This document shows positions 5,581 to 42,090 of a stretch of 42,090 nt of DNA, piece by piece. The notes below the pieces were generated by a model. The model was given only the letters and a program-made list of their open reading frames with translations, did not search any database and was not told where the DNA came from. How positions within the stretch are numbered: position 1 is the stretch's first letter; each line of letters opens with the position of its first letter. The DNA comes from Verrucomicrobiaceae bacterium (GTDB lineage: Bacteria > Verrucomicrobiota > Verrucomicrobiia > Verrucomicrobiales > Verrucomicrobiaceae): positions 1-42,090 of the forward strand of contig JAIYDW010000092.1 in assembly GCA_027487315.1 (NCBI GenBank), given 5' to 3'. The translations under genes and the position numbers were made by a program.

Positions 5581-5614
5581 TACATCCCCTTCTCCCCCAC
5601 GTTCCCACCGACAA

Positions 5615-5638
5615 TCGTCCTCGTCCTCGTCCTCGTCT
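5615..5638. repeat. Hexanucleotide tandem repeat
   Basis: TCGTCC is repeated three times and followed by a fourth unit with one change (TCGTCT), in the gap between the AraC gene and the sulfatase gene. It lies 57 bp upstream of the sulfatase start, where slippage could alter promoter spacing, but four short units may also be chance in this C-rich strand. Confidence 0.55.
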
Positions 5639-5694
5639 CCGGCTTCCCACTGATCACTGATTACTCCCCCCAATCTCCCATCTCTAGCTCCCCC

Positions 5695-13670: not shown

Positions 13671-13734
13671 GATGGTAAAACCCCTCCCACCCTAGCCAAC
13701 TTGCTTCACTTGCCAATCACAGCTACCACATTTC

Positions 13735-14607: not shown

Positions 14608-14628
14608 CCCCATTCGCTAACCCGTAGG

Positions 14629-15485: not shown

Positions 15486-15567
15486 TAAAGTCCACTCTCT
15501 CTCGCTCCCTCCCAAAAACCTCGTGACCACACCCCGGCATCCTCCGTTAAAAACGAATTCACACCCC

Positions 15568-23183: not shown

Positions 23184-26100
23184 TTACGGGATCTTCTCAA
23201 ACACTGCCTGACCGCTCAAGATCGGCGTCGCCGTCGTCTTCTCGCTGAAGCTGCTTGGCAGTTGTGGCAGCATGAAGTAACCCCACGCTTGTTGCTCCGT
23301 GCCATTGCGCACGATCATCCCGACCCCGCTGACCGCCCGCGCAACCGTCGCTGGGGAACCATTGAACGGATGCGGCTGGCTCAGGCTGAACTTGAACGAG
23401 ACCAACCCGGTCGCCGGAGTGATCGTCATCGAAACCTTCCGTGGGTTGTTTAGCACATCCGGGAACACCTTGCTCGCATTGTCCACCCGCACCGCCACCG
23501 TGTTCGCGGGGCTTCCGGTCATCACAGGCAGGGACGCCTCCGAGTTCGCTTCCACCAGGTTCAACCGCGCATTGTTCGTCGTGGCATTCTGCGCCAAGCC
23601 CAACACAGGGAAGCCCTTCAACGGCGGCAAATAGCGGCTGCCAAGCACACTCAGATCAAACGGCCCGAACCCTGCCGCATACGTGCGACCCGCCGTCGAG
23701 GTACTCACCGCCTGAGCCACCTTCCACCAGCTCACTGTACCGTCCAGCGTGTTGTCCGTCGTGTCCAACGCCACCACTTGGTCAATCTGCAGCTTGCCCA
23801 GCACCGACCCGCGCGTGCTCGTCGCTGTGGTTCCATACAGAGCTCGGTAAACCAGCACCTCGCCCGTCGGCCCCACATACGTCGCCGTCGTGAACGCCGT
23901 TCCATCCGCCAGCTTGCCGGACACCGTCAGCTTGCCAGTGGTCGAACTCACCGTGAACGACGCGTAACCCGTCCCTTGTGGGATGCTCGGATTGGTCGTC
24001 GTGCCTTGCAGCGGCAACGGAATGTCCAAGCCCATCGTGTAGTAGCCCGAGTAAGCCAGCGCCGGCGTCTTGTTCGTTGGCGTCACCAACCAGGTGTTCC
24101 TCCAGCCGTCAAACTGCGCAATCGTCCGGCCATCCGTGATCGTGCCGCGCGTCAGCGGATTGACAGGGCCCGTCACAAAGCCAGCCGAGTTCAATTTGAA
24201 GCTCACCAGCAACGGCCGCAACGTCGTGCCCCGGCTCACCTTCACGGTCACACTCGGGTTCGTCGGATCACTGATCGCCGAGTTCAACGCACCTTTGAAA
24301 GGAAACACCCTGGCTCCCATCGTCAGACTGCCGCTGTAGCTCCCCGTCTTGGTCGTCGTGAAGTTAATCATCCCGCCCAGATTGCCATTCAGGCTCGAAT
24401 TCCGATCGATCGGCCCGGTAAACGCACCAATCAGACCCACATCCAGCGGATTGACCACCAGGTTCTTAATGATCGGTGTCGTCGTTCCCAGCTTGTTGGT
24501 CGCCGTGATCGTCACCGTGTAAGGAATCACCAGCTTCGTCACCTTGTCACGCCGCTCCACCGTCGCACGCCCGCTGATCAGACCCGCGCTGTTGATCGTC
24601 AGACCCGGAGGCAGTCCCACCGCCTTGAAGCTCACTGGCATCTTCAGCGGATCAGGCTGCCCCGCTTCCGACGGATTGTCCACCATCGGCACCTGATAGC
24701 TGTAAGGCTGACTCACCACCGTGTCAGGCAGATTCCAGGAACCTTCAGGCTGAAGCGCAGGCGGCTGCGTGTAGATAAACACCAAGTTGTCACCCCCATC
24801 CAAGGACCGGGTCCCAAGACCCGCCGACACCCGGCAGAAGAACCGCTTCCGACCTGCCGTCAGGTTCGGCATCCTCAACGTCCTAGCCGTCGCACCAGGA
24901 ACCTCTTGCGCGGTCGTTGTCGAAACCAGACCATCATCATCCACAAACCACTGATAGGTCAGCGGATCAGCCTTGTCCGCGGTCGCGGTCACACTCAGAC
25001 TCACCGTTCCAGGCTGTGTCAGCACAAACCGTCCGGGCTTGCGATCCACCACCGATACATAAACGACCTGCGTATCCACCTGAGTCGATCCACTCACCAG
25101 CGAGTTGCTGATCCGGCAGAAGTATGGACCCGCACGCGCGCTCGTCACGTCCTCAATCCGCAAGGTCGAGTCGGTCTCATCCCCCACTGCCTTACCTTTG
25201 AAGAACCACTGGAACTTCTGTGGCTTGCCACCACTCGTCACCACATCCAACTCCAAAGTGGAACCCACCGCTACCACCTTCGAAATCGGCTGCGTGGTGA
25301 CCACCACCTGCGCCGCTCCAAAGATCACCGTTGCCTCGTTGCTGGTCAGAGTCGTGTAAGCATTGCTCACCACCAACCGATACTTGCCTTGGTTGGTCAA
25401 ATCCAGCGTCTGGGTGATCGTAGGCGCCGTCTGGCCGCTCACAGGCGCAAACGGACCAAAGTTGGACCCCGTCAACCCGATCCGCGGTGCCCGCTCCCAC
25501 TGGTAAGTGAACGGCCCATCACCCGTCACCGCCGCCGTCAGCGTCACTGGATTCCCCTCTGGTACCGCTGGGACCGGCGTCAGAGGCTGCTGTGTGAACG
25601 CGATCGCTTGGCTCACCGTCAACACCGCCACATCACTGGTGACACTGCCGAAGCCGTTGCTCACCGTCACCGTGTAGTTACCGCTGTCAGCCACTTGCAC
25701 CCCATTGATGGTGTACTCATCATCATTAGGCGCCCCAGGAATCGCCACTGTCGCCTTCTTCCAAACGTAAGTCAGCGTGCCAGGCCCAATCGCCGTCACA
25801 TTGAAGGTCTTGTTGGTTCCAGGAGATGGGAACAACGTCGCCCCGGTAGGTTGCGCCGTGATCCGCGGCAACGTCACCACATCCAGCGTCGCCAACTGGC
25901 TATCCACCGTGTCCTCGGGGTTCGGACCATTCGTCACTCGCGCCCAGTATTCACCCGAGTCAGCACCCACCACCGCAGGAATCGTGTAAGTCACCCCATT
26001 CGCCCCTGGAATCGGATTCGCCGTCGTCGGTCCCTTATACCACTGAATCACCAACGGATCAGACCCCGTCACTCCAAGCGTGAAGGTCACCGAATCCCCC

Positions 26101-29100
26101 GCAAACACCACCCCTCCCACTGGATTCGTCGTGATCGCCGGTCCCGTGCGCAATCCATCAACTCGCAAAATACCCAGCGTGTTGAAGTCCGTCGTCACCC
26201 ACACCGGTGCCCCCATGCCATCGGTAGGCAGCGGGAACAACAAGTCGGCCAGCGACGCACCCCCGCCAATGTTCAACGTCCCCCAGTTCAACAAATCAAA
26301 CGCAGACCCTGCACTCGGAATGTATCCGGAGTCCAAATTGATCCGGATGCGCGTCCCGGCATCCAGGTTCATCGCACCCGCCACATCCAGCTGCGTGAAT
26401 CCTGTCCGTGTCAGGTAGAAGTCCAGAATGCTGAAATTGCCGGTCGTCAAATCCCCGTTCAGATCCAGCACATTCAACCCGTTGCGGACACCACCACCAA
26501 CGTTGAGCAAGGACTGCTGCCCGGCCTGATACCCCGTCCCTGCTGCCAGCACCACCGGACCCGCCACCGAGCCAATACCACCAAACGTTGCCGCGGACGC
26601 CACCGAAACCGTCCCTGTCGAAAGACTGCCACCATCCAGCAGCAGCGCACCCGAGCTAATCGTCGTTGGCCCCGTGTAGGTGTTGGCACCCGTCAAAACG
26701 GCCGTGCCCGTTCCACTCATCGTCACCGCACCCGAACCTGCCAGCACGCTGCCGATCGTCGTCGTTCCCGTAGGGCTGAAGCCAAACCCAGCCGCCGAAT
26801 CAATCGACCCCGTGCCCGCGATCGAAGCGGAACTGCCCGTCACATTCAGCGAAGACACCGTCAGGCTATTCGCCCCAATGTCCAGCGCACCCGCTCCAGA
26901 CACCGTGACCGCTCCGCTAATCGCATTGTTCACGCCCAGCAGCAGTTTGCCGTCCTGCACCACCGTGCCACCCGTGTGCGTGCTCACCACATTCAGCAAC
27001 ACGGTGCCAGCCCCATCCTTGGTCAACTGACCCGCGCCAGTCAGCGCCGTGTCCAGCGTCAACTGCGTGCTGGGAGCGGTATTGAATGTACCCCCAAGCG
27101 CCCCCAGCGTGATGCCGCGATTCGCATCATTGATCGCAAAGCTCGCCGTGCTCAACAAGGTGCCGCCATCAAGCAGCAATTGATCTGCCGTGAATGCTGC
27201 CGGTGCCGCACCCAGGTTGTCCTCGGACGAGATGGAAAGCACCCCACCCGTCACAGCCGTTTGTCCATCAAACGTATTCACCGCACTGAGTACCAATGTG
27301 CCTGCACCAGACTTGGTCAGAGTTGATCCAACTCCACTCAAAGGAGAAGCATAGGTGACCGACTGACCCGCCGTGGCAATCTTGTAAGCGGTCCCGGGAG
27401 CACTCACAAACCGGGCGGAGTAATCCACCGTGTTGCCCGCTCCATGACGCAACGTCCCACCCCCAAAGGTGATCGACCCCGTCGTTCCCAAGGCCCCCGC
27501 ACTGCCAGCTTCAACGATCCCGGCATTCAACGCCAACCCACCCGTGAAGCTGTTGTTTCCAGCCAGTGCCAGCAGTCCCACCCCGTTTTTCGTGATTGCT
27601 CCCGTTCCAAGCTGCACATCACCGCTAAAGCTGACATCACCCGCACCCGCACTCGCCAACGTCAAACCGACATCAGTCCCCGTCAGCGCGCCCAAGGCCA
27701 AGGCCCCGGCCTCACTGGAGATCGTCAACGGGCTCAAGGCAGTGATCGCTCCAGCAAAGCTGTTGCTGCCACTCCGGTTCACCAAAGCCCCGGTTTGACC
27801 CGCCGCTCCGGTTCCACTGATCGTCAATGCCTCAGCCCCAACCGCGATTCCACCTTCCAACTGCAACGTCGCCCCATCAGCAACCACCGTGCCCGCCGTC
27901 ACCGCTCCCAGTGCTGTGCTGTTTGAAATGCGCAGCACCCCGCCATTCACCGTCGTCAAACCACTGTGCGTGCCTGCCCCCGTGATCGCCCAGGAACTTG
28001 TTCCACTCTTCACGATTGCAATCGTCCCCGCACCTTCCACCACGCCATTGATCGAGTTCACCAGCGAAGCGTCCGCCGTTCCATCGAGCGTCAGAGTTTT
28101 CGCTCCGAACGTCAATCCAGTCACCACACCAAATCCAACCGCACCAGAACCGTTCGCATTCAACGTTAACCCGCCCGTCGTGCCCTGCATCCCCAACACC
28201 CGGTCGCTGCTGTGCCCGGTCCCGATGTAGTTCAAGGCCACGTTCGCTGTCGTAAGTCCCAGACGAATCATCCCGTTCCCGGCAGTCGTCGGCGCACCCA
28301 GACCGCTCGCGCCGCCACCCACGTTGCCAATCGTGTTGAACGTCACCGCTCCTGCCTGGATCTCAGTTGGACCGCTGTATGTGTTCAATCCGTTCAACAC
28401 CAGCGTGTTCGCCTGTGCTTTGCGCAAGCCACCCGCACCCGCCAGAACCGCATCCACATTCGTCGTGGCCGGGTCAGTAGTGGTGTTATTGAAGAAGAAC
28501 CCGTTAGCCGCAGTGATCGTGCCGGTTCCGGTGATGACTGGAGCTGTCCCACTCATCGTCACCAACCCACTGCTTAGATTGTTGCTGCCCAAGGCCAGCG
28601 TCGTGCCTCCTGCCAGAGTGAGATCACCTCCAACCCCAAGTGCATTGTTCGCTCCAATGGTGATGGTGCCGGCGCTGAGCACCGTCGGCCCGGTGTATGT
28701 CGCCGCCGCATTGAGCGTCAGATTCCCCGCACCCACCTTGGTAAACCCGCCCACACCCGATCCCAAACTTCCCGCCAGAGTAACATCATTCCCGTTCGTA
28801 TCCAACGTGCCCCCCCCGTTCAGGAAGCTGATCGTCCGCGCCGATAAATCGCCGATAAATCCGGTCCCAAGGCGGAGCGTTCCTCCTGCAAATACCAGGT
28901 TACCCGCCGTTCCACCAATACTCGCCAACCCACCAATCTGGAGCACACCCTCGTTGATCGTCGTCCGCCGAGTTCCACCCCCTGCCGTGTTCGTCCCCGA
29001 AAGAATCAAGGTTCCGCGTCCACCTTTGGTGATATCAGCCGACGTTGTGAGAGCGGAACTGATCGTGGCTGTGAGCGCCTTAGTCGGAACCCCAGCATCT

Positions 29101-32100
29101 GGATTCACCACATGAATCACATATTCATTGGCCGCACCCACCGTGATCCCGTTGCCAAAGCCGCCCAACGTCAATCCATAATCCCCCGCCGCCGCTGCCG
29201 GATTCAACGTGAAGAGCAATCCTCCACTCGTGATCGCGAGAGATTCGCCGGCTCCGATACTGGACACATCGTGCGTCGCTGCAGCCACGCTGTTATTGTG
29301 AAGCACGAGAGCATTCACGGTTCGTGCCGGACCGAATGGCAAGGCCAAATTTCCCGTCAGCGATTCGCGGATGTTGTTCGTGTTGGCGGCCGCAGCTGCA
29401 AAGGTGCTGTATTCCGAGGTCAGATCCAATGGGCGCAGTCCGCCAACCGGCGTTGAGACGGGATCTCCGTCTTGGTCAACCCCTGATGTCGCCGCCGCAT
29501 ACGTCAGAAACGAATTGCCCATGTGGGTGGCGGCAAGCGCACCTGTGGTTGATTCGCCAATGGCCCAAGGAATAATGGAAACATTCTTGGATCCCGCCAC
29601 CCCGGCACCACCTCGCATCGCGGTGACGAAAGCCGTCTCATTGGTGGCATTACCGATTCGGAACTGGTTGCGATCCCCGGAGTTGGTGCCAAGTGCCCGA
29701 CCGCGAGCACTGAGGGTCGCATTGTTGACACGGACAAAGTTGGTTGCGATAATCGAAGCCCGTCCGGTGGTGCCACTGGCCTCGCCGCTGAGATAACTTG
29801 CGCCCGAGTTGAACGTCAGCACTCCAATCGTTTCACTCGTCTCCGCATTCTGGTCGGTGCGAATGGCCAATCCGCGCACGATGGTCTGTCCGTTGAAGGT
29901 CCCGTCAGCCGAATTCAAGGTGATACCCGCAGTATCCAGAATCCGTGTCCCTGAACGTGTCGCGCTGATGTTGTCCAGCAGCAGGTTGCCTCCTTTGTTA
30001 ATGGTGAATGCCGAGGCATCAAGTCGACCGACACCACTCAATTGAAGCAATCCGCCATTGACCACTACGGTGCCTGTAAATCCGGAACTACTCGCATTCA
30101 GGTTCAAGTTGCCCACACTTCCGGAGTTCATAACAAGAGCGCCCGTCCCGGTGATGACACCCGAGTAGGTCGTTGATGCGCTTTGATTGAGGCTCAACGT
30201 GTTGGCACCAATGGCGACAAGCCCATTGTCCTCACCATCCGATCGCCGACCCCCTTGCAGGCGCCCGATCGTTTCATTGCTCAGCAACTGGAAGGTCGTA
30301 TTGCGGTTGTCGTCAAGAATCACCAATGAGTTGTCGCCAATGGCATTGCCGCCGCTCACCTCGAGGGTGCCTTGAAGAATGTCGGTGTAACCCGTGTAGA
30401 AGTTGTTTCCGGAGAGACGCAGCGTGCCGTTACCAGACTTCGTGATCGCGTGGTTGGTGCCGATGGCCGACGAAATCTCGAACACTTGGGAACTGTCCTG
30501 GGTGACAATCAATTCCGGAACGTTGGCCGCGATGGCTCCCGAAGTCAGTGTGCCACCAAAAATCCCGGGCGTTCCCCCGACATTGCTCGTGACCAGAATA
30601 CCGCCACTGGTGATTCCAAGCACTCCGGTCGTATTGACGTTCAAATCCGAACCTGCGGCCGCATTGAATCGCAAGCTGTTGATGCCGATTGCTGCCAAGG
30701 TACCAGTGAAGCCGGTCGTCTCATCGGTGATATGGTCACCCGTGACCCACGTCGTCACGTCGTTCTTCGGCGTCGACAGAAGTCCAACCACATTGGTCCC
30801 GCTGGTTGTGGCGAAGTAGGTTCCTGTTCCATCATTCACCGTCGCAAAGCCCGAAAGCCCCAACAGGCCATTGGTAAGGGTTGCGGTCGTTGTTATCCCG
30901 TTGGTGGCACTTTGAACGCCATTTGGAAGGATGAACCGAATCGTGCCGTCATTCGCGTTCGCCGCCCGGGTAAGGCCGCCAAAATTCAGCACTGCTTCTT
31001 GCCCGGTTCCCCCATCCACTTCAATCACGTTCGCACCACCTTCACCCAAGGTCAGCGTTGCCACGGTTTGGGTCGTAGCGGCGCTATTGTTCCCCTGAAT
31101 TTGAAGCGTACCGCCTCTCATATCCAAATTCGACAATTCCCGGAGCTTCACGGTGTTGCTGAGCTTGTAATCCAAGATCAGCGTTCCCGCATAGATGGCG
31201 CTTGCCCCGGTGGAGGTCAGCGCGCTGTTATCCCCCCTCAGTGTGACCGTTCCAGTCGCCCCGAACTTGTCAAAAGTCGCCGTTCCGGAGCTTGCCAAAT
31301 TGGCATTAATCACGCCTTGATAAAGATCCACGTTACCGAGGACCGTAAGGGTTCCTGTCCCGTTGATGGTCCCCGTGCGGTCCAAGTTCCGGTTACCCAG
31401 GTGAAGTTCGGTGACCGTTTGATTGAATGCATTCATGTTGAATACGCCAGCGAGCCCGCCAGCATCAACACCGATGCGCAACTGATCGAACTGGTTGGGA
31501 TCAACTGCATCCGAGGCACCAAGATTGATGATGCCTCCAGCAGTGGCCCTCAAGGTTGCATCGGCACTGAGAGTCGTAGTGTTATATGACAAAACACCGG
31601 AACCATTCAGGTTTAAGGTCGCCCCGGCAGTGACCGTGAAGTCATTGCGGACCTGCAACAGCCCACTGTTCAAATTCAGAAACGTCGTCGCGCCCGTTAC
31701 CGTCAGGGCGTCTCCAATTCGGCTCACTCCAATCTCATGGTTCCAGGTGCCGCCGTTCACCGTCATATCAGCCGCATCTCCTGTTTGGGAAATACCTCCA
31801 CGGATGAATCCTTGGCTACCGGGCAGCCCCGTCAAAGTCAGTTGACTGCCGTCAGCAGTCCCCGTGTTGACGATGAGACCGTTGAAGGTCAAACTCGCTC
31901 CGCCAACTCCGTTGTTAGCTAGAGTGCTACCAGTGGTCGTCGTCGTGACGACCCGATCTGTCGCCTGACTGGCATTGCCTGTGAACCGCAGCGTTCCGCC
32001 GGACAAGGTCAGTGCACTGTCCTGCCCCAGGCTGCTCGGCCCGCCACCGATGTTCGATACGGTCGCAAACTCCACCACGCCAGTGTTGACTACAAGTGGT

Positions 32101-35100
32101 CCTGAAAAGGTGTTGGCATTATTACCCAAAACCATAACACTCGAGCCGCGTTTGCTCAAGGTGCCGGTTCCACTGATCAGATTATCAACCGTGTGCGTTC
32201 CAGTACGATTGAACTCCAGAGTGGCATTATTGACGACATTCCCAGTGCCTAGATTTCCCGTGCTGCCACCATTACCAACTTGCAGGGTTCCAGTGGTGAC
32301 AGTGGTAACGCCAGTGTAGAGCGGGTTGTCATTCGCCAATGCCAACAATCCGTTGCCCGACTTGGTCAAGTTGAACGCCCCAGTCAGGGCCCCCGTGACA
32401 CTAAGAGAGGAGGCGGCCGTAAGCGATGCTGCGGAACCCGCGGCTGTCGCCGCGTTCGATATCCGGAATCTCGAGCCACTGATGATTTGGGTAATCGTCG
32501 TGCCAAACGGGATCCCAGGGCCTGAAACAACCATCCCAACCCTCAAGTTGGTGGTGTTCACTCCATCCACTTTCGTTGCGCCGTTCGCGTAGTTCGCCCC
32601 CGCGAGAGCGATGGAATCCGCCACCGTCCAGGTTTGGTCAGCCCCGAGTTTGACACTGGTTCCGATCGTGACTGAGCCAGGACCGCCTGCCGCCAAGGTG
32701 ATCCCCTGAGCACCAGCAATTTCCAAACGGTTGGTGCTAACAGTGCCTGGATTGATGGTGACCGATGTCGGAATGTTGGTGCTGGGTTCAAAAGTCAGCG
32801 AGTTGATGCGGAAGTTTTGTCCCAGTGTCGTCGTGACGGCTGCGCCCGCCGCCGCATTGGATTGGAAGAAGACATCGTTGCCTGTTCCAGGAATGCTGGT
32901 CGAGGCAATGGCACCCGCCTTGTCAGTCGTCCAATTATTCACATTTCCGTTCCACACCGTGTCTGTCTGACCGCGCCAGTAAAGATTGCCAGTGATCAAA
33001 TCACCCGTACTAACCGAAATCAGATTGTCAGTACGATTGATCGTGAAGGAGGTGAAGCCACCAGGTGTGTTGGCCAATAGCCAATCCAGGGTTCCAAGCG
33101 CACCCGTCGTCAGTCCGCCGTCGACAGACGAGATCAGGTTGTACTGCTGATTGCCTCTAAGCCCGGCGTCCGAAAGGTCCAAGAAGACTTGGTTACCCGT
33201 AAACAGGCTTAGCAGTCCCCCTGTCTTGAGATTGATCAAGTCAGTGACTCCATTGTCTCCAGGAGTGGTCAAGTCGCCCACATCAAGACTCAAGGTCGTA
33301 ATCGTGCCGCCCGTTGAGCCCAAGGACAGTGAGTCCACATTGAGTTCGCTGCGCGCGGCATTCAACAAACTCAGGGTTGAGGACGCACCTACCGAAATGG
33401 TATTGATCGCTGAGGGGGTGGCGAAACCACCACGGAATGCCAGCACGCTACCGGAACCGGTCACACTCAAGCTTCCTGTTGTGGACGCTTGTCCCAGAAT
33501 ACTCAGCCGCCCGCCGGTAACCGACGTCGAACCGGTATACCCAGCCACCCCGGTTATCACCAAGCTGCCAGCGCCGGTCTTGGCAATGCCATAACTGCCG
33601 CCGCTCTCAGCGACCGAGTCCAGAGTAAGGGTGCCAATGCCCGCACCATTCACATTGGTCACATTGAAGGTCGGACTCCCGGTAAAGGTCGTCGCTCCAA
33701 AAGCCAAGTTCGCAACGTTAGGTGCTGTATTGCCGTTCCCGTTGCTTTGCGTCAATGTCACGGCGCCCACACTAAGCGTGCCCATTCCCAAACCGATGTC
33801 GGTGGCCGCGGCTGTCGTCCGCCCGGTGCTGATCGTAGCATCGTTGGTGATGATAACATTATTGCCAAAGTTTCCGCCCGAGTTCAGACGCAAATCCAGG
33901 TTACCACCCGCTAGCGTGATCACACCCTTATTGGCAGTGCCAAAAGCCCCGGCACTACTCTGCAACCGCAATAGGCCACCGGTCACAGTCATGCTCGTAT
34001 TGGCTCCAATCAACGTCCCATAATCTGCACCCAATACCAAGGTCCCAGGTCCGCTCTTGGTCAGGTTCACGTTGTCCGCCATGCCAAACTGCCCAGCGTC
34101 ATCTAGAGTCAATGACGAGTTAAACGCAGTGTCAATTGTCGCACCACCCGCACCCACACGAACCAAATTGTAGTTTGTTGTGGCCACCCCTCCCGGATTG
34201 ACCGCCCCATTCACATTGAGACGTGCGCCATTGATCAATGTCACTGTTTTGGACGTCACATTGGCCTCCGTTGCACCGCCCCAGGACCGATCACTGTTCA
34301 CTGTAAGTCCGGCGCCATTCACCAGGATGTCTCCCGCAAACGTGTTCGCCACATTGGACAAATTCACCGTCCCTGCACCAGTGATGGTCAAGGCCACATT
34401 CGCACCAGGCAGCGCTTGCGTCGAGTTCACCGTCCCGCCGCTGATCACTGCAGTTGCCGCCAGTGAAGAATTTGCATCGGCGACTGTCCAGATTTGTGGC
34501 GCGCTAAACACAATCGGCGCAGCGATGGTGGTGACCGCCTGTGCACCTGTTTGAATTTCGATTCCCTGGCTGCCGAGAGTCAGCGTCCCCGCTGCTCCTG
34601 GCAGGAGACTCACCGAAGGGGTAGCGCTACTCAGGAATCGAATCCCCTGGACGGACACACCAGAGTCCAGCGTTGTCGTCGCCGGCGCGGCGATGGTATC
34701 CGCACTGAAGATGACAAGGTTATTCGCTCCAGGTCCGTAGTTCGTGCCAGTCAGGCCATCCGAGGTGCTCGACCAGTTGGACGTCGTCCCGCCACCGCCC
34801 AAGCCACCCCAGGCATTGTTGACTCCACCCTTCCAATACAAATCACCAGCCGCTGCTTGGCCTACCACATTCAAAGTTACGGTTCCAAGTGATGTGCTCA
34901 CATTGTAGGTGAATCCTGAAGGCAGGTTGCCTGGTTCAAAAACGCCAGGCCCCGTTATGGTCGCTCCCGTCACCACATCATAGCTATTCCCTACCGTGAG
35001 ACTGCCCAATGCAGATCCATTGATTCGCCCTCCGCCAGCATTCACCACGAGGGAACTTCCGGGCGAGAAGATCATTCGATCGGACGTCGCTGTGTTCACA

Positions 35101-38100
35101 CCCAGATTAAAACCCAGGGCACCACTGCTGACAGCTCCACCAAGATTGATCGTAACCCCTGATGGCACCGTCCAGTTGGCGGCAACACCGTCATAAAGAA
35201 GGTCAAGAGCCCCCTCCTGCGTTGCCCCAATGTTGAAGGTAGTGACGTTTGCCAGGGCCGAAGGAGAAAACGAAATAGCCCCTCCATCCACATTCACCGG
35301 AACGCTGGTGGTGTTCGTGCCCGTGATATCCAGGCGTCCACCGTTCACCACAATGCCACCCGTGAACGTATTGGCACCAGTAAGGGCCAGGCGACCATTT
35401 CCCAATTTGAGAAAGGTACCAGCCTGGCTCGGCGCGTTTGCTAAGGGTTGGCTGATGGTAATGTTGATGCCGTCTCCCACATTCAGTTTTGCACCATTGC
35501 TGGTGAGGAAGGCATTGGTGAGTCCACTCATGTAGGACGCGCTTGAAGCCAGCGGCCGCAACGTGCCGCCATCCAGAGTCAGGTTTGCTATCGATCCCGT
35601 GCCCCTTACCGTTGGAAGTGCGGGCAGAGTCACATCAGCCGTACCACCAATAGTGATCGACGAGGTGTTGGTATTTCCAGCTGAAAGCAAGGTGAAGGCA
35701 TTGGCGACAAAGGTTCCTCCGGTGAGATTGAGATTGGACACTACACCTGTCGAACCTCCGGCTGAACCCCCTAGTGCGAGCGTCCCAATCGCGGCCGTTC
35801 CGCCGGTCTGATTGAACGTGTTTGTGGTGTTATTCGCCACCGCGTCGGATCTTCCAATCGCCAACAACGACCCCGTCCCCCCCGTCATCTGCAGGCTGCC
35901 CGTTCCACTCAGATTGAATATCCCGGTTGAACCAGTGTTGACTCCGAGTCGAACACCTGTCGTGGCCGATGCCACCGTTGCCAGCGTTCCGCCACTGAGA
36001 TTGTAAATGCCGGTGTTGCCGATGTTGGCAACGTTTCCAATCAGGAGTTGACTGCCGCCCGTAAAGGAAACCGCGCCGCCACTCTGATTGACCGTTCCAG
36101 TGGCCGCTGTCGTGGCAGCATTGCCCACCGTAAAGCTAGACCCTGCCAAATTGTGAACTCCATCTAAAATGTTTAGCGTGGCATTGATTCCGGCCAGGCT
36201 CGAAACGGTAATGGCTCCCGATGTTCCCGTACGCGCCCCGGATAACGTCAAGGTCCCGCCGTTTACCAGGGTGGTTCCTGAATAGGTGTTGGCACCGCTC
36301 AATTCCAGAGTCCCCGTTCCCACCTTCGTCAGTCCCAGCGTCCCTGCGAGCGCGCCATTTTCCAAAATCCCTGCGAAGGTTGTGCTGGTATCGTTCGCGC
36401 CAGCCGTGAGGACCGCACCGGCAACGCCGCCGTTGCTCACTGTGGAACCCACACTTCCCTCCAGTGAAGCCACCGTCTGGTTAAATCCATTCAGTTCCAA
36501 ACCACCTGCCGCACCAAGCAAGTGAGCGGATGTCGCATTGAATGCAAGGGCCGCACCAGCGCGCAGTTTACCTCCATTCACAGTCGTAAGCCCCGTGTAG
36601 GTATTGCTTCCAATCAGAGTAAGCGTGCCAGCTCCTTCCTTGGTCAGATTCGCCGCCCCGGTGATTCCACCGCTTGAGGTCAAAACCGAAGACGCATCCG
36701 TCACCGTCCAACTCTGGTTCGTCCCAAGAACAACTGGGGCGGATAGGCTGACCGCTGCGGGTGCTCCAGCTTTAACTTCGATCCCATCCGCTCCTAAGGT
36801 CAAAACACCACCAACGCCGGCACCGATGCTGACAGGACCCGTCCCGGAGTTGAGGAATTTCAGGCCTTGGACGCTGAACAAGCTGTCGAGCGTTGTCACG
36901 ATTGGCGCCGCACCCGCATTGGTGGCGCTAAAATTCACCACATTCCCTGAACCCGGAGTGAAGCCCGCCTCGGTCAAGCCGGCAGTGTCCGTCGCCCAAT
37001 TGGTATTGCCTCCAGCAATGTTTGCCCAACTCTGTGTGGAGGAATCACCTCTCCAATAAAGCTCGCCAGCTGCGGCGGCCAGGACGTTCAACGACACCTT
37101 GGTAGGGTCGGTAAGATCGAGAGCGTATGTAAACCCACCTGGAAGCACGCCGAGCGCTAAATTCGAGATGTTCGCAATGCTATTCGGGCCACTGATCAAT
37201 TCATAAGTCCCGATGCCAAATCCCAGAAGTCCGCGGGCGTTGATCAGCCCGACTCCGGCGGGATCGACAGTCAATGCGCCGGTTCCTGTAAAGACAATCT
37301 TGTCCGATGTCCCAAGGGTCCCGAGTTCAAACCCTAACCCCCCGCTGGTTGTCGCACTGCTCAGAGTGATGCCCGTGTTGTTAGGCACATTCCAAGTGGT
37401 CGTCGCTCCATCAGCATACAGATCAAAACTCCCGTTGCCGCCAACGCCAACGGACAACCCTGAGATGTTTGCCAGTGATCCCGAGTTCACCGACAGTGTT
37501 CCTCCATTCACCGTGACCACACCCGTAAACGTGTTAGCGGCACTCAGGGTCAAGATGCCTTGTCCCGTCTTCGTCAATCCGCCAGCCAAGTTTGCTGTAT
37601 TGAGTGCACCAAGGGTCACAGATGCCCCTGTTCCACCACCCCCGGACAACGTCACAGTTGGAACCGTTCCTGCCGTGTAGGTTCCAGGGGAGGTGATCAC
37701 AATGCCAGTCACCTGCCCACCACTCACCACAGCATAGCCTGAAGCTGGCGTCCCGCCGGGAATCATTCCATCAGTACTGAACCGGACAAGCGGTGGCGCC
37801 ACATAGCCCGTTCCGCCAGCCACACTGATGTTCGCTTGGGTCAGCCCCACTGATGTTGCGGCGCCCACGAGAGGCTGTCCGATCGTGCTGTCAAATCCAT
37901 TGCTATCGAAGATCAGGCCCCCACTGAACGAAGGCGCGCCAACGACCGCCGAGTTGTCAATCGCCCCAAAAATCGTGGAGGTCACCGTCACCGCTGCAGT
38001 GGTTGCGGGAATGACATTGGCCATGTTCGCACTCGACCGCAAAGTGCCCCCGGCAAAGTTGAGATAGACGTTGTTACCCGAAGTACCCGTGCTGGGGAAA

Positions 38101-41100
38101 AGAGTGGTGAAGCCCCCCCCCATGCTCAACGTACCTGCCGCCAGGTTGACGAAACCATTGTTGTTGGTGACGACCGTGGTGGTGCTGTTCCCAAATCGAA
38201 TGGCCTGCGAACCTGCTGTGAGAGTTCCGCCTGCAACGTTCAAGGCCCCATAGCCATTCGACTGGTTCAGCGTGATGCCCAGCACTGTGGATGCTCCCGT
38301 GCGATTCAATGTTCCCCCACTCAACAGCGTCAATTCTCCCGCCCCCCCCTGGCTGACCATGGTCCACTCCCCACCGGTGTGGTCTAGCAGGCCCGTTCCG
38401 GAGATGCGCGCTACCCCGACACCAGTGGAAGCGTTGGCGACAATAAAGCGTCCATTGGTTTTGTGGATGCCTCCTGAAAGGTCGAAATACCCGTAACCGT
38501 TGGTCGCCACATACTGAGTGTTGGCGGCTGGTGAAAGCGTGACGGTTCCGCCAGTTTGATTCCAAATGGAAACTGCACCAGTGGCGTTCGCTCCCTGAGT
38601 GGTGTGCATTGTGATGCTGCCGGTGCCAGTCACATTGACTGTGGCAACACCCGCCGTCGACCCATAAGTTAGCGTGCTCCCAGAAGCCACCGTGGTGCCA
38701 GTTAAGGATCCGGTCACGTTCAACGTTCCCCCGGTTACTACCGTGTTACCGGTGTAAGTATTCGCACCTGAGAGCGTCAAGGCACCGGCACCGACCTTGG
38801 TCAGTCCGAGTGCCCCTGCCAGCGTTCCGTTTCGCAAAACCCCTGAGAACGTGGTGTCAGTGCCCAGTGCTCCGACACTTAGCGCAGCCGCTGTGGCCGA
38901 CTCGTTCTCCACGGTTCCCGCCCCAGACAGAGATCCGATGGCATTTGCGAATCCGTTGAGCCGCAGAGTGCCTCCGACATTGAAAGGAGAAGCCGCGCTA
39001 AATGTATTCGCTGCACCACCGCGTAGCACGCTTCCGGTCGGCAAAGTCGTCACCCCGGTGTAACTCGAAGCCGTCCCCGAAAAGGTCACCAACCCGCCGT
39101 TGGTGCTCGCAATCGTCAAGTCTCCTGCCCCCCTGACCCCACCACTGACCGTCAAGCTCGATCCTCCACTACCGTTGACTGTCCATGTCTGATTCGCACC
39201 AAGCACAACCGGGGCGCTAATCGTCGCCGCACCAGAACTCGCCTCGACATTGATGCCGCCAGCCGAACTAGCAGGCGCAAGGGTCAATGAGTTTGTCAGG
39301 ACCGCCCCAGGTGCGATCGTCACGTCCGTCACTCCGGTGGGATTGCTCGAGAATCGAAGACTGTCAACGGTGTAGGGAGTATCCAAAAAGGTGTTGATCG
39401 AAGGTCCTGATACCGAGGATGCCGAAAAGACGACCGTATTCGCAGTGCCCGGGGATCCACCAGCATTGGTCACTCCTGCCAAATCAGTCGTGAAGTTGGA
39501 ATTGCCACCCGTTATCGTCGCCCAGCTGTTATTCACTCCACCACGCCAGAAAAGGTCTCCAGCCGCAATCGCGTTTACCCCCAACTGCACTAGGGTATCA
39601 CTCGAAGTCAGGTTGTAGCTGAATCCACCGGGCAGGAACCCCAGGCTATAGGTTGCCGTCGACAATCCACTGGTCGCCGAAATGAGATCATAAGTCGGAG
39701 ATGATCCAAACCCAGGCAGTACGCCAAAATTGAACCTCACGGTGTTAAGGGTCGTGGCTGCCCCCGTTAACGTCAGCGTGTCCGACGTCGCGGTGTTGGC
39801 GCCAATATCCAGTCCAAGAGTCAGCAGACCTGAACCAACCGCGCCTAAACTCATCGACGTCAGGTTCGTCAGTTGATCCGCCGAACCGTTGATCAAGCTC
39901 AGGCTGGACCCCACGCCAACCTCAACGTTGGTGATTAATCCAGGTGCCGCCAACCCTGCACCTATCCCAAGATTTCCACCCACAGCCCGCAATCCCGTGG
40001 TGCCATTCAGTGGCGAATTAATGTTCAAGGTGCCTCCAACGACACTGGTAGTGCCCTGATACGTCAGGGTCATCCCCGCATTAAAGGTAGTGGTGGTGTT
40101 ACCCGCCTTGATAATGCTCAAAGCTCCCGCTCCACTGTCCGTGATCGTCCGTGATCCGGTAGAAGTCGCAGGGTTCAGGTTCACCACGTTGTCATTGGCT
40201 CCAAAGCGCAAGGTCGCAGCCGTTCCAGAGGTGTTGTCGATGACGACGGCACCGTCCGTCGTGGCTGTCAGAGAGGTGATCGTCTGTGTGGTGCCATTGA
40301 GGTTCAAGGTCGCCGTGTCAGAGTTCACAAATTCGGGGCTCATGATCAGTCCGCCAGCCGCGATCGCACTGCTGTTGATGGCTTCGTTGGTCGTGAATCT
40401 GATCGTGCCGCGGTCGATGTCAGCGAAGACGATGCTCTGGTTGAAGTTCGAGGTTGCGCCGTTCGTCCCTAGTGTGAGGGTCCCACCCCCGTTCACGTCG
40501 AATCGGACACCAAAGGCCGTCGAAGTGGTGAAGTTTCCATTGATCACCGTCTCTCCCGGCCCATCGAGCGTCCATGAGCGGTTCGCGGTCAATGCATTGG
40601 CCGTGACGCCACCATTGAAGGTGACCGCTTTGCCTGCGACAACGCTGTTGATGGTGGTGACGTTATTGGCAGCAGCACCCAAGTTGAGAGCGGTGCTGAA
40701 GGTGAGGTTGTAATCGCCCAGGAATCCATTGGTGGTGTTGTTGTTGTGGGTAACAGCATTCGCGATGGTGCGATCGCCGCCGGAGGCGAAGACGTTCCCG
40801 TTGTTGAGAACCAACGCTCCCACCGTTCCAAGCGCGGCGTTGTTCCCGATACCGAGTGCACCTGCCGAAGCTGTGGTGTTACCCGTGTAAGTGTTGGCAC
40901 CGCTCAGGATCCAGGTCGCTCCGCCGTCCACGGCGACCGAGAGGACGCCAGCTCCGTTATCAGTAAGGACGTTGGTAATCGCGTTGCCATCGGCGTTGGA
41001 ACCCCGAAGGTTCAATGTCTTGTTGCCCGTCTCAGTGGTATCGTGCGCCACGTTCGTCAGGATGAGCGGTCCAGATCCGTCAGCGTGGATCGTGTTGTTG

Positions 41101-42090
41101 GCTGAGGTGCCACGCAGCCGGATCTTGCGGTCACTGGTCTCACCAGCACCCACATACACCAAGTTACCGCCAGTGGTAGTCGCATTCCCCAAGACGATGG
41201 CGTTGCCATCGTTCATAGCCACCCCGCCAGCCCCAACGCTTGAAGTCGAGCCACCGGTGCTGCTGCCAAGGGAAGTGACCACTAAGGTGCCCGCGTCAAC
41301 TGAGGTCAACCCTGTGTAGGAGTTGGCGTTACCAACGCGAAGGATGCCCGCGCCGTTCTTGAACAAGCCACCACCTGCGCCTGAGAGAACGCCTGATAGG
41401 GTCGCGTAATCAGCACCGGTCGTGCCGTTGTCATTGACGGTTACCGTGCGGGCGACTGCGCCCAGGTCGATGGCATTGGTGAAGGTCACATCATCGAGAG
41501 AACTCGCTGAGTTCAAGATGAGTGCTTGCGTGCCTCCGGTGCCAACGAAGCCGCCGCTTCCCCAGATCAAATCCGCGCCACCATTGAGGGTGACAGTGAG
41601 TGGTCCGCCGTGTGCCGCAAAGCCACCGCCACCCGTGGTCCCACCGAAGGTGATGGTTCCAGTGCCTGCTGTCGGTGTTGCTGACAAGTCTCTAGCGAAT
41701 GTGCCGGATGACTGGAAGATACCCGAGGTCGCGTTGGTCCCAAGGACAAGCGGGCTGTTGGCAGGAAGCGCGGTAGCATTGTTGACGGCGAGAACACCGT
41801 CAGTCACCCTCGTGATTCCGGTGTAGCTGTTGGCGCTGTTGGCCAAGTTCCACTGGCCTGCTCCCGTCTTGTTGATGCCCAGCGCGACTGACGCGGTGCT
41901 GTCCACCAACTGCGGGGCGAAGGTGTTGTCACCCAGCGAGGTGCCACCAAAAATCAAGGTCGCAGCGGCAATGGTGTTGTTAACGATAGGCCCAGTGCTC
42001 GTCCAGACCAGCGCGTTGTTGTTGGAGGCGTTGCTCGAAATGGTCGCGCCAGTTGCGGCGGCTGCCAGAGTAAACAAACGATTCGTTGAA
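23184..42090 (-). CDS. Giant PATR-repeat / Ig-domain surface protein (partial, N-terminus beyond window)
   Basis: One uninterrupted frame runs from the stop at 23184 through the right edge. The first in-window start-like codon is a TTG at 42077, but codons upstream of it stay open (S-T-N-R before LFTLAAAA), so the true start lies outside. At least 6,297 residues are present. About residues 1-5,310 are beta-strand repeats of autotransporter-associated type: more than 20 copies of a motif like 'LTKxGxGTLxLSGxNTYTGxTxVxxGxL'. Four large modules are marked by 'LYWRG...W' linkers. Then five Ig-like domains (about 5,312-5,768), one He_PIG-like domain ('GLPPGLTINSAGLISG', about 5,768-5,880) and a 418-residue beta-rich C-terminus. 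Cys was seen only in two Ig domains. Probably extracellular, adhesive or structural. No autotransporter barrel, PEP-CTERM or LPxTG signal is seen at the C-terminus. Confidence 0.93.
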   Translation of the reverse strand, partial: STNRLFTLAAAATGATISSNASNNNALVWTSTGPIVNNTIAAATLIFGGTSLGDNTFAPQLVDSTASVALGINKTGAGQWNLANSANSYTGITRVTDGVLAVNNATALPANSPLVLGTNATSGIFQSSGTFARDLSATPTAGTGTITFGGTTGGGGFAAHGGPLTVTLNGGADLIWGSGGFVGTGGTQALILNSASSLDDVTFTNAIDLGAVARTVTVNDNGTTGADYATLSGVLSGAGGGLFKNGAGILRVGNANSYTGLTSVDAGTLVVTSLGSSTGGSTSSVGAGGVAMNDGNAIVLGNATTTGGNLVYVGAGETSDRKIRLRGTSANNTIHADGSGPLILTNVAHDTTETGNKTLNLRGSNADGNAITNVLTDNGAGVLSVAVDGGATWILSGANTYTGNTTASAGALGIGNNAALGTVGALVLNNGNVFASGGDRTIANAVTHNNNTTNGFLGDYNLTFSTALNLGAAANNVTTINSVVAGKAVTFNGGVTANALTANRSWTLDGPGETVINGNFTTSTAFGVRFDVNGGGTLTLGTNGATSNFNQSIVFADIDRGTIRFTTNEAINSSAIAAGGLIMSPEFVNSDTATLNLNGTTQTITSLTATTDGAVVIDNTSGTAATLRFGANDNVVNLNPATSTGSRTITDSGAGALSIIKAGNTTTTFNAGMTLTYQGTTSVVGGTLNINSPLNGTTGLRAVGGNLGIGAGLAAPGLITNVEVGVGSSLSLINGSADQLTNLTSMSLGAVGSGLLTLGLDIGANTATSDTLTLTGAATTLNTVRFNFGVLPGFGSSPTYDLISATSGLSTATYSLGFLPGGFSYNLTSSDTLVQLGVNAIAAGDLFWRGGVNNSWATITGGNSNFTTDLAGVTNAGGSPGTANTVVFSASSVSGPSINTFLDTPYTVDSLRFSSNPTGVTDVTIAPGAVLTNSLTLAPASSAGGINVEASSGAATISAPVVLGANQTWTVNGSGGSSLTVSGGVRGAGDLTIASTNGGLVTFSGTASSYTGVTTLPTGSVLRGGAANTFSAASPFNVGGTLRLNGFANAIGSLSGAGTVENESATAAALSVGALGTDTTFSGVLRNGTLAGALGLTKVGAGALTLSGANTYTGNTVVTGGTLNVTGSLTGTTVASGSTLTYGSTAGVATVNVTGTGSITMHTTQGANATGAVSIWNQTGGTVTLSPAANTQYVATNGYGYFDLSGGIHKTNGRFIVANASTGVGVARISGTGLLDHTGGEWTMVSQGGAGELTLLSGGTLNRTGASTVLGITLNQSNGYGALNVAGGTLTAGSQAIRFGNSTTTVVTNNNGFVNLAAGTLSMGGGFTTLFPSTGTSGNNVYLNFAGGTLRSSANMANVIPATTAAVTVTSTIFGAIDNSAVVGAPSFSGGLIFDSNGFDSTIGQPLVGAATSVGLTQANISVAGGTGYVAPPLVRFSTDGMIPGGTPASGYAVVSGGQVTGIVITSPGTYTAGTVPTVTLSGGGGTGASVTLGALNTANLAGGLTKTGQGILTLSAANTFTGVVTVNGGTLSVNSGSLANISGLSVGVGGNGSFDLYADGATTTWNVPNNTGITLSSATTSGGLGFELGTLGTSDKIVFTGTGALTVDPAGVGLINARGLLGFGIGTYELISGPNSIANISNLALGVLPGGFTYALDLTDPTKVSLNVLAAAAGELYWRGDSSTQSWANIAGGNTNWATDTAGLTEAGFTPGSGNVVNFSATNAGAAPIVTTLDSLFSVQGLKFLNSGTGPVSIGAGVGGVLTLGADGIEVKAGAPAAVSLSAPVVLGTNQSWTVTDASSVLTSSGGITGAANLTKEGAGTLTLIGSNTYTGLTTVNGGKLRAGAALAFNATSAHLLGAAGGLELNGFNQTVASLEGSVGSTVSNGGVAGAVLTAGANDTSTTFAGILENGALAGTLGLTKVGTGTLELSGANTYSGTTLVNGGTLTLSGARTGTSGAITVSSLAGINATLNILDGVHNLAGSSFTVGNAATTAATGTVNQSGGAVSFTGGSQLLIGNVANIGNTGIYNLSGGTLATVASATTGVRLGVNTGSTGIFNLSGTGSLQMTGGTGSLLAIGRSDAVANNTTNTFNQTGGTAAIGTLALGGSAGGSTGVVSNLNLTGGTFVANAFTLLSAGNTNTSSITIGGTADVTLPALPTVRGTGSIANLTLDGGTLRPLASSASYMSGLTNAFLTSNGAKLNVGDGINITISQPLANAPSQAGTFLKLGNGRLALTGANTFTGGIVVNGGRLDITGTNTTSVPVNVDGGAISFSPSALANVTTFNIGATQEGALDLLYDGVAANWTVPSGVTINLGGAVSSGALGFNLGVNTATSDRMIFSPGSSLVVNAGGGRINGSALGSLTVGNSYDVVTGATITGPGVFEPGNLPSGFTYNVSTSLGTVTLNVVGQAAAGDLYWKGGVNNAWGGLGGGGTTSNWSSTSDGLTGTNYGPGANNLVIFSADTIAAPATTTLDSGVSVQGIRFLSSATPSVSLLPGAAGTLTLGSQGIEIQTGAQAVTTIAAPIVFSAPQIWTVADANSSLAATAVISGGTVNSTQALPGANVALTITGAGTVNLSNVANTFAGDILVNGAGLTVNSDRSWGGATEANVTSKTVTLINGARLNVNGAVNPGGVATTNYNLVRVGAGGATIDTAFNSSLTLDDAGQFGMADNVNLTKSGPGTLVLGADYGTLIGANTSMTVTGGLLRLQSSAGAFGTANKGVITLAGGNLDLRLNSGGNFGNNVIITNDATISTGRTTAAATDIGLGMGTLSVGAVTLTQSNGNGNTAPNVANLAFGATTFTGSPTFNVTNVNGAGIGTLTLDSVAESGGSYGIAKTGAGSLVITGVAGYTGSTSVTGGRLSILGQASTTGSLSVTGSGSVLAFRGGFATPSAINTISVGASSTLSLLNAARSELNVDSLSLGSTGGTITTLSLDVGDLTTPGDNGVTDLINLKTGGLLSLFTGNQVFLDLSDAGLRGNQQYNLISSVDGGLTTGALGTLDWLLANTPGGFTSFTINRTDNLISVSTGDLITGNLYWRGQTDTVWNGNVNNWTTDKAGAIASTSIPGTGNDVFFQSNAAAGAAVTTTLGQNFRINSLTFEPSTNIPTSVTINPGTVSTNRLEIAGAQGITLAAGGPGSVTIGTSVKLGADQTWTVADSIALAGANYANGATKVDGVNTTNLRVGMVVSGPGIPFGTTITQIISGSRFRISNAATAAGSAASLTAASSLSVTGALTGAFNLTKSGNGLLALANDNPLYTGVTTVTTGTLQVGNGGSTGNLGTGNVVNNATLEFNRTGTHTVDNLISGTGTLSKRGSSVMVLGNNANTFSGPLVVNTGVVEFATVSNIGGGPSSLGQDSALTLSGGTLRFTGNASQATDRVVTTTTTGSTLANNGVGGASLTFNGLIVNTGTADGSQLTLTGLPGSQGFIRGGISQTGDAADMTVNGGTWNHEIGVSRIGDALTVTGATTFLNLNSGLLQVRNDFTVTAGATLNLNGSGVLSYNTTTLSADATLRATAGGIINLGASDAVDPNQFDQLRIGVDAGGLAGVFNMNAFNQTVTELHLGNRNLDRTGTINGTGTLTVLGNVDLYQGVINANLASSGTATFDKFGATGTVTLRGDNSALTSTGASAIYAGTLILDYKLSNTVKLRELSNLDMRGGTLQIQGNNSAATTQTVATLTLGEGGANVIEVDGGTGQEAVLNFGGLTRAANANDGTIRFILPNGVQSATNGITTTATLTNGLLGLSGFATVNDGTGTYFATTSGTNVVGLLSTPKNDVTTWVTGDHITDETTGFTGTLAAIGINSLRFNAAAGSDLNVNTTGVLGITSGGILVTSNVGGTPGIFGGTLTSGAIAANVPELIVTQDSSQVFEISSAIGTNHAITKSGNGTLRLSGNNFYTGYTDILQGTLEVSGGNAIGDNSLVILDDNRNTTFQLLSNETIGRLQGGRRSDGEDNGLVAIGANTLSLNQSASTTYSGVITGTGALVMNSGSVGNLNLNASSSGFTGTVVVNGGLLQLSGVGRLDASAFTINKGGNLLLDNISATRSGTRILDTAGITLNSADGTFNGQTIVRGLAIRTDQNAETSETIGVLTFNSGASYLSGEASGTTGRASIIATNFVRVNNATLSARGRALGTNSGDRNQFRIGNATNETAFVTAMRGGAGVAGSKNVSIIPWAIGESTTGALAATHMGNSFLTYAAATSGVDQDGDPVSTPVGGLRPLDLTSEYSTFAAAAANTNNIRESLTGNLALPFGPARTVNALVLHNNSVAAATHDVSSIGAGESLAITSGGLLFTLNPAAAAGDYGLTLGGFGNGITVGAANEYVIHVVNPDAGVPTKALTATISSALTTSADITKGGRGTLILSGTNTAGGGTRRTTINEGVLQIGGLASIGGTAGNLVFAGGTLRLGTGFIGDLSARTISFLNGGGTLDTNGNDVTLAGSLGSGVGGFTKVGAGNLTLNAAATYTGPTVLSAGTITIGANNALGVGGDLTLAGGTTLALGSNNLSSGLVTMSGTAPVITGTGTITAANGFFFNNTTTDPATTNVDAVLAGAGGLRKAQANTLVLNGLNTYSGPTEIQAGAVTFNTIGNVGGGASGLGAPTTAGNGMIRLGLTTANVALNYIGTGHSSDRVLGMQGTTGGLTLNANGSGAVGFGVVTGLTFGAKTLTLDGTADASLVNSINGVVEGAGTIAIVKSGTSSWAITGAGTHSGLTTVNGGVLRISNSTALGAVTAGTVVADGATLQLEGGIAVGAEALTISGTGAAGQTGALVNRSGSNSFAGAITALSPLTISSEAGALALGALTGTDVGLTLASAGAGDVSFSGDVQLGTGAITKNGVGLLALAGNNSFTGGLALNAGIVEAGSAGALGTTGSITFGGGTLRHGAGNTVDYSARFVSAPGTAYKIATAGQSVTYASPLSGVGSTLTKSGAGTLVLSAVNTFDGQTAVTGGVLSISSEDNLGAAPAAFTADQLLLDGGTLLSTASFAINDANRGITLGALGGTFNTAPSTQLTLDTALTGAGQLTKDGAGTVLLNVVSTHTGGTVVQDGKLLLGVNNAISGAVTVSGAGALDIGANSLTVSSLNVTGSSASIAGTGSIDSAAGFGFSPTGTTTIGSVLAGSGAVTMSGTGTAVLTGANTYTGPTTISSGALLLDGGSLSTGTVSVASAATFGGIGSVAGPVVLAAGTGYQAGQQSLLNVGGGVRNGLNVLDLNGDLTTGNFSILDFYLTRTGFTQLDVAGAMNLDAGTRIRINLDSGYIPSAGSAFDLLNWGTLNIGGGASLADLLFPLPTDGMGAPVWVTTDFNTLGILRVDGLRTGPAITTNPVGGVVFAGDSVTFTLGVTGSDPLVIQWYKGPTTANPIPGANGVTYTIPAVVGADSGEYWARVTNGPNPEDTVDSQLATLDVVTLPRITAQPTGATLFPSPGTNKTFNVTAIGPGTLTYVWKKATVAIPGAPNDDEYTINGVQVADSGNYTVTVSNGFGSVTSDVAVLTVSQAIAFTQQPLTPVPAVPEGNPVTLTAAVTGDGPFTYQWERAPRIGLTGSNFGPFAPVSGQTAPTITQTLDLTNQGKYRLVVSNAYTTLTSNEATVIFGAAQVVVTTQPISKVVAVGSTLELDVVTSGGKPQKFQWFFKGKAVGDETDSTLRIEDVTSARAGPYFCRISNSLVSGSTQVDTQVVYVSVVDRKPGRFVLTQPGTVSLSVTATADKADPLTYQWFVDDDGLVSTTTAQEVPGATARTLRMPNLTAGRKRFFCRVSAGLGTRSLDGGDNLVFIYTQPPALQPEGSWNLPDTVVSQPYSYQVPMVDNPSEAGQPDPLKMPVSFKAVGLPPGLTINSAGLISGRATVERRDKVTKLVIPYTVTITATNKLGTTTPIIKNLVVNPLDVGLIGAFTGPIDRNSSLNGNLGGMINFTTTKTGSYSGSLTMGARVFPFKGALNSAISDPTNPSVTVKVSRGTTLRPLLVSFKLNSAGFVTGPVNPLTRGTITDGRTIAQFDGWRNTWLVTPTNKTPALAYSGYYTMGLDIPLPLQGTTTNPSIPQGTGYASFTVSSTTGKLTVSGKLADGTAFTTATYVGPTGEVLVYRALYGTTATSTRGSVLGKLQIDQVVALDTTDNTLDGTVSWWKVAQAVSTSTAGRTYAAGFGPFDLSVLGSRYLPPLKGFPVLGLAQNATTNNARLNLVEANSEASLPVMTGSPANTVAVRVDNASKVFPDVLNNPRKVSMTITPATGLVSFKFSLSQPHPFNGSPATVARAVSGVGMIVRNGTEQQAWGYFMLPQLPSSFSEKTTATPILSGQAVFEKIP
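24440..26150 (-). other. Ig-like array and He_PIG-like domain of the giant protein
   Basis: Five consecutive Ig-like units of ~85-95 residues, each with a 'QWxxxG/K' core Trp, a 'DSGxYxxxVxN'-like loop and a hydrophobic end strand. The first begins near 26,145; the fourth and fifth carry 'YFCRIS' and 'FFCRVS'. A putative-Ig (He_PIG) unit follows at about 24,770-24,445. This arrangement of PATR repeats, Ig units and a C-terminal beta region recurs in Verrucomicrobia surface proteins (family knowledge). Confidence 0.8.
32420..32580 (-). other. Inserted 'VGMxVSGxGIPxGTTI' module within the giant protein
   Basis: A ~55-residue stretch with 'DGVNTTNLRVGMVVSGPGIP', 'GTTITQIISGSRFRISNAAT' and 'AAGSAASLTA'. 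The pattern resembles a recurrent module of phage structural proteins and large adhesins (VGMxVSGxGIPxGTTIxxIxxxTxFxLSxxAT). It interrupts a block that begins 'LGADQTWTVADSIALAGANY' and resumes as 'SLSVTGALTGAFNLTKSG'. Approximate residues 3,166-3,220. Confidence 0.65.
37600..37835 (-). other. Inserted 'GGxGYxxPP...' module within the giant protein
   Basis: Between PATR units there is a ~78-residue stretch beginning 'VAGGTGYVAPPLVRF', continuing 'AVVSGGQVTGIVITSPG' and ending 'PTVTLSGGGGTGASVTLG'. The pattern GGxGYxxPPxV ... GxVxxIxVTxxGxxYxxxPxVTxxGGGGxGA is a known small beta module of phage tail and large bacterial surface proteins, different in style from PATR units. Approximate residues 1,415-1,493. 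Confidence 0.65.

Follow-up and report, generated by a model that had tools for sequence, protein, structure and literature searches.

How can a giant protein rich in PATR repeats reach the cell surface and be held there if it has no autotransporter barrel? We investigated this question at a locus of a Verrucomicrobiaceae bacterium. The window analyzed here, 42,090 bases long, is the whole of one contig (C69) of a draft genome of 5.87 Mb in 256 contigs.

A giant reading frame open at the contig edge

The minus-strand frame at 23184..42089 comprises 6,301 sense codons followed by a TAA stop, and its 5′ end is open at the contig edge. Because the window is the entire contig and the frame reaches its edge, the start of the giant gene and its signal peptide are missing. 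The 5′ remainder was sought through contig overlaps, as for the C104/C38 pair described below, and none was found among 40 further contigs. At the base composition of the frame, 6,301 stop-free codons have a chance of ∼10^-104; the remaining five frames of this stretch contain 111–363 stops in four cases and 86 in one plus frame, where stops are likewise sparse over long stretches. The sequence-only reading had described the frame as intact over 18.9 kb, and this holds at a length far outside chance.

Residues 1–5300 carry 21 PATR stretches by Pfam (PF12951) or 24 by TIGR02601, classing the product as a PATR-containing protein; the full layout is given in Table 1. The domain make-up first proposed by eye stands for the PATR repeats and for the Ig-like units, of which four PF13927/PF07679 stretches are significant and a fifth is visible by eye. 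The He_PIG-like unit is legible by eye only, Pfam being silent in the giant yet reporting He_PIG before the C-terminal domain (CTD) in paralogues. The C-terminus reads ...TPILSGQAVFEKIP and ends, as had been noted, in VFEKIP. It has no PEP-type motif, membrane helix or basic cluster, and no PEP-CTERM model matches the giant, in agreement with the earlier statement that such a signal is lacking. Type IX, type I and type V export genes had been suggested as neighbors to look for; no export genes are present among the window's other annotated genes. Long open frames at 15559–17031, 13723–14613 and 5335–7002 (-) are candidate genes without a family match, and short exact words of positions 1–130, probably from a repeat, recur in contigs C10 and C9.

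Table 1. Layout of the giant reading frame, with positions in the window
Feature	Position	Strand	Basis
PATR-rich passenger, residues 1–5190 of the open frame	26520..42089	-	PF12951 and TIGR02601 matches
PATR passenger end-cap, residues 5191–5312, "...FDLLNW...LFPLP...VWVTTDFNTLGILRV"	26154..26519	-	motif listing, blastp
About five Ig-like units, four of them significant by Pfam	24789..26153	-	PF13927/PF07679
He_PIG-like unit	24441..24788	-	by eye; Pfam He_PIG here in paralogues only
418-residue CTD	23187..24440	-	paralogues, AlphaFold; no Pfam/NCBIfam model
CTD barrel 1, model residues 10–126, avidin-like	24093..24443	-	AlphaFold and structural matches
CTD barrel 2, model residues 132–284	23619..24077	-	AlphaFold and structural matches
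CTD barrel 3, model residues 285–428, with conserved tail, avidin-like	23187..23618	-	folds alone
Stop codon TAA	23184..23186	-	sequence

The C-terminal domain ends many different proteins

Pfam and NCBIfam models gave no match to the last 418 residues. The homologue search that the earlier reading had called for proved productive: this stretch returned 32 matches in its own genome, about 30 of them strong, and the domain recurs in relatives. The N-terminal parts of the matching ORFs differ and include PATR, Ig, He_PIG, lamin-tail (LTD), FGE-sulfatase and lactonase-like domains. In this genome and its relatives the 3′ end is available for 52 CTD ORFs; the CTD lies within 5 residues of the ORF end in 48 of them and within 30 in 51, and the family shares a conserved tail ("GYFLLPQLP...TPILSGQV...P", consensus "GYFLLPQLP...TP.LSG.V...P"). 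Every CTD ORF with a complete 5′ end (23/23) has a signal-peptide-like start, versus 128/676 other ORFs, as called by a simple rule of our own and with many of the 676 comparison ORFs not being genes.

Within the family Verrucomicrobiaceae (36 genomes, G000–G035), the CTD is absent from 18 genomes; the 18 positive ones have 10–30 matches each in 16 cases, with 3 in G002 and 1 in G016. One genus (g8) includes both CTD-bearing and CTD-free genomes, Prosthecobacter is among the named matches, and an even draw across the phylum found the CTD in 18/288 genomes. Carriers number up to 30 proteins per genome and include giants of 6,000–9,000 residues. A many-or-none pattern across genomes was reported for PEP-CTERM by Haft and colleagues (PMC1569441, PMC3237569); the CTD distribution resembles it, with common descent contributing too. 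Judged by these searches, the CTD is a previously undescribed and widely used domain family. Two CTDs at the ends of contigs C55 and C10 (L048, L051) are near-identical over their visible part (ADGTTLLGTAWRNPW...), as if duplicated recently.

Three small barrels are predicted in the CTD

AlphaFold modeling of the CTD with 49 aligned homologues gave a nearly all-beta structure (mean pLDDT 91.1, pTM 0.90), predicted to form three small beta-barrels in tandem with a weak likeness to avidin and TbpB. The approximate barrel limits in Table 1 were read from the succession of strands and from the extents of the structural matches rather than from model coordinates. Barrel 3 also folds when modeled alone (pLDDT 89.6, pTM 0.83). 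A 12- or 14-strand outer-membrane barrel at the C-terminus had been named as the outcome that would overturn the first reading, and the prediction gave three small barrels instead. The remark that no beta-barrel is visible remains right for an autotransporter barrel and fails for the small barrels predicted here.

For barrels 1 and 3, alignments to avidins cover about 100 residues at a borderline Z of 6.5–7.8, a level that common arrangements also reach. TbpB, LbpB, HphA and HpuA are also among the structural matches of the CTD, with TbpB, HphA and HpuA at Z 4–7 among avidins and others. Overall the fold likeness is weak (Z 5–8). Sequence searches of solved structures with the CTD matched none, and Foldseek of the model gave no E below 0.001 against the PDB and nothing meaningful against viral models. 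An internal repeat relation among the barrels is weak at best by profile alignment: hhalign gave E 7e-4 (probability 26%) for barrels 1 and 3, E 1.5e-3 (16%) for barrels 1 and 2, and E 0.2 for barrels 2 and 3.

Homologous giants carry either the CTD or PEP-CTERM

Verru_Chthon A (TIGR02600) was found in 27/27 family genomes searched. Wherever the gene just upstream of A could be obtained and was a giant, its tail followed the genome: the C-terminus is the CTD in 10/10 CTD genomes (G010, G011, G017, G021, G023, G024, G028, G031, G033 and G034) and PEP-CTERM in 10/10 CTD-free genomes (G004, G008, G014, G015, G025, G026, G027, G029, G032 and G035). G030 has no giant upstream of A, and other genes occupy this place at the single cassette inspected in each of G012 and G013.

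We compared passengers using giants from six genomes of each tail kind. The final stretch of the passenger in G010, which takes in a non-repeat domain, is 36–40% identical to 6/6 PEP-CTERM giants in pairwise blastp, and three pairs (G010/G032, G031/G032 and G031/G025) show collinear matches of 27–46% along the proteins. Homology ends near a similar end-cap, followed either by VPEP...RRRRR or by Ig units and the CTD; in the relatives' PEP-CTERM giants the cap leads directly into VPEP. An HMM of the cap built from PEP-CTERM giants failed to pick up those with the CTD. A similar upstream gene, with a C-terminus like "RIEILEGAAQV", flanks the locus on its far side in G025, G031, G001 and contig C104 of the window's genome. 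This genome has both tails on PATR proteins: one on C46 ends in PEP-CTERM, and the giant spanning C104 and C38, which are joined by an exact 119-base overlap inside the giant gene (L182:1-119, L041:1-119), ends in the CTD.

In a tree of the A proteins from these slots, one well-supported branch (99/95) parts CTD rows from PEP-CTERM rows; the slots of G011, G024, G028 and G034 were typed afterwards, G011 being unlabelled in the tree. As few as one exchange therefore explains the rows, and the swap of tails may have been a single evolutionary event. On these comparisons, the tail exchange is the strongest evidence that the CTD would stand in for PEP-CTERM.

Several observations concern the giants more broadly. 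Assembly breaks fall within giant genes, as at C104/C38. PEP-CTERM frames of 8,000–12,750 codons occur in several CTD-free relatives, and G035:C83:236388-236453 (-) is the PEP-CTERM end of a 14,376-codon frame. Long PATR proteins with a PF03797 barrel occur in some relatives. One of them, a PATR-rich protein of 5,528 aa encoded by a CTD-free relative (L236:626-17209 (+)), has a true autotransporter barrel of this type at its C-terminus, which adds a third tail to the two described above for PATR passengers.

A pseudopilin-like cassette adjoins the giants

In model searches, Verru_Chthon A matches GspK, B GspI (XpsI), C GspJ and D GspH, all below the curated NCBI cut-offs. The A–D proteins (L116:1339-7152, L090:1266-3212) appear as giant or divergent GspK/I/J/H-like minor pseudopilins. 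Gene order is A-B-C-D-giant on C104 of the window's genome and in G001, and the giant precedes A in g8; on the joined C104 and C38, the cassette is followed by a PATR-Ig-CTD giant. No cassette is visible beside the window's own gene, whose upstream neighbors are off the contig.

Secretins were found in 18/18 genomes searched, with 8 matches in the window's genome, and minor pseudopilins of the T2SS form a substrate-binding tip (PMC6211770). From the GspK/I/J/H-like cassette adjoining the giants and the presence of secretins, we infer a T2SS-like export of the giants, possibly with dedicated pseudopilin tips.

No partner gene exclusive to CTD genomes was found among exosortase, secretin and Verru_Chthon A, all of which occur with and without the CTD. 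The window's genome has four exosortase matches (TIGR02602) and all CTD-free relatives have exosortase too, and it was rejected as the partner of the CTD. No CTD giant stood beside the counterpart of the window's downstream P-type ATPase in the short loci of relatives that were examined. The open-access literature yielded no paper that deals with the Verru_Chthon cassette, and none that treats PEP-CTERM in Prosthecobacter.

How the giants may reach and stay on the surface

On balance, we favor a reading of the CTD as a three-barrel sorting module at the place of PEP-CTERM on a giant, presumably Sec-exported PATR beta-solenoid surface protein. It builds on the C-terminal module, its position and paralogy, the replacement of PEP-CTERM and the cassette neighborhood, all observed by sequence and prediction (the cassette in relatives and at one paralogue in the window's genome), together with the signal-peptide-like starts of CTD ORFs. 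We read a sorting module because ∼30 copies end unrelated secreted proteins and because a homologous domain takes the place of PEP-CTERM. The CTD probably determines how its carriers get to the cell surface or remain there. Its C-terminal copies and the replacement of PEP-CTERM in homologous giants support the suggestion that the end of the protein may serve as a signal, hitherto unrecognised, for export or anchoring.

Under this scheme, the giant would be exported by Sec, as we suppose for the window's copy, and fold in the periplasm. It would then pass a secretin with the aid of dedicated GspH/I/J/K-like minor pseudopilins from the Verru_Chthon cassette. The CTD would retain it on the surface without exosortase cleavage and without a membrane helix. 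The cassette would thus act in export, and the CTD in retaining or routing the giants. More tentatively, and at somewhat short of an even chance, these elements may amount to an unrecognised outer-membrane sorting system of Verrucomicrobiota, in which a triple-barrel CTD replaces exosortase sorting and T2SS-like pseudopilin tips are gene-specific.

The CTD might instead be the recognition signal of a dedicated outer-membrane translocon, like the cargo domains of the T9SS and T11SS, and itself no anchor. A folded, C-terminal domain with many substrates per genome and a mostly all-or-none distribution would suit such a role, as would the presence of TbpB, HphA and HpuA among the structural matches, since the passage of T11SS (Slam) cargo across the outer membrane is directed by a small C-terminal barrel of eight strands (PMC12282271). 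We nevertheless hold this to be unlikely: Slam (PF04575) is absent from 34/35 family genomes, including that of the window, which led us to reject a Slam/T11SS route; no NCBIfam model of T9SS C-terminal signals matches any of 49 CTD members; SprA_N (PF14349) is absent in 28 genomes, control genomes being empty too; and homologous PEP-CTERM giants lie beside the same pseudopilin genes. A lone weak PF04575 (Slam-type) match occurs in G010 (L127, E 4.7e-5).

A domain at the C-terminus can also be adhesive rather than a sorting device. Avidin- and lipocalin-like barrels frequently bind ligands, and adhesins are where Ig and PATR domains are typically seen, in keeping with an ordinary domain that binds glycans or small ligands, lies C-terminally by chance and has no sorting role. 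The near-strict C-terminal position on ∼30 different proteins and the known sorting signal found in its stead on homologous passengers make this distinctly improbable. That one or more of the barrels are eight-stranded OmpA-like outer-membrane anchors we regard as very improbable indeed. Barrel 1 does match the transmembrane domain of OmpA, among others (Z 7.1), and hydrophobicity alternates in several CTD strands, but avidins match slightly better, the strands of barrels 1 and 2 are mostly 7–8 residues and short for a membrane barrel, and three membrane barrels in tandem would be unusual. BAM substrates usually end in an aromatic residue, whereas the giant ends in P.

How PATR giants that lack an autotransporter barrel leave the cell becomes a testable question here. 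Within a single genus, giants that are homologous end in one tail or the other beside the same pseudopilin cassette, and the roles of tail and cassette are therefore separable. An undescribed and widely used domain family is also added to a phylum about whose surface little has been learned.

Comparison with known systems

The giant resembles type Va autotransporters (PF12951 with PF03797) in its PATR-rich passenger and differs in its tail. A type Va route was rejected: the ∼255-residue PF03797 barrel is absent from the giant and from its genome, and AlphaFold predicts the three small barrels in its place. The T9SS C-terminal domain (Por secretion signal) is a folded beta domain common to many different secreted proteins, a description that also fits the CTD, although the CTD is matched by no T9SS signal model. 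With the T11SS cargo TbpB, HphA and HpuA the CTD would share a small C-terminal barrel; unlike them it is predicted to have three, with no sequence match and in a genome without Slam. Compared with the T2SS tip proteins GspH/I/J/K, Verru_Chthon A–D of relatives match the corresponding models, but below cut-off and with A reaching 1,300–1,800 residues. The avidin fold is approached by barrels 1 and 3 in structure, at borderline Z and with no sequence relation found. A further parallel is PEP-CTERM/exosortase (EpsH; PF07589, TIGR02602). Unlike PEP-CTERM, which has about 24 residues, the CTD is folded as barrels over 418 residues and has none of its motif, helix or basic cluster; like PEP-CTERM, it is C-terminal on many diverse signal-peptide proteins, is many-or-none in most genomes, and is found on homologous giant PATR proteins at the same locus.
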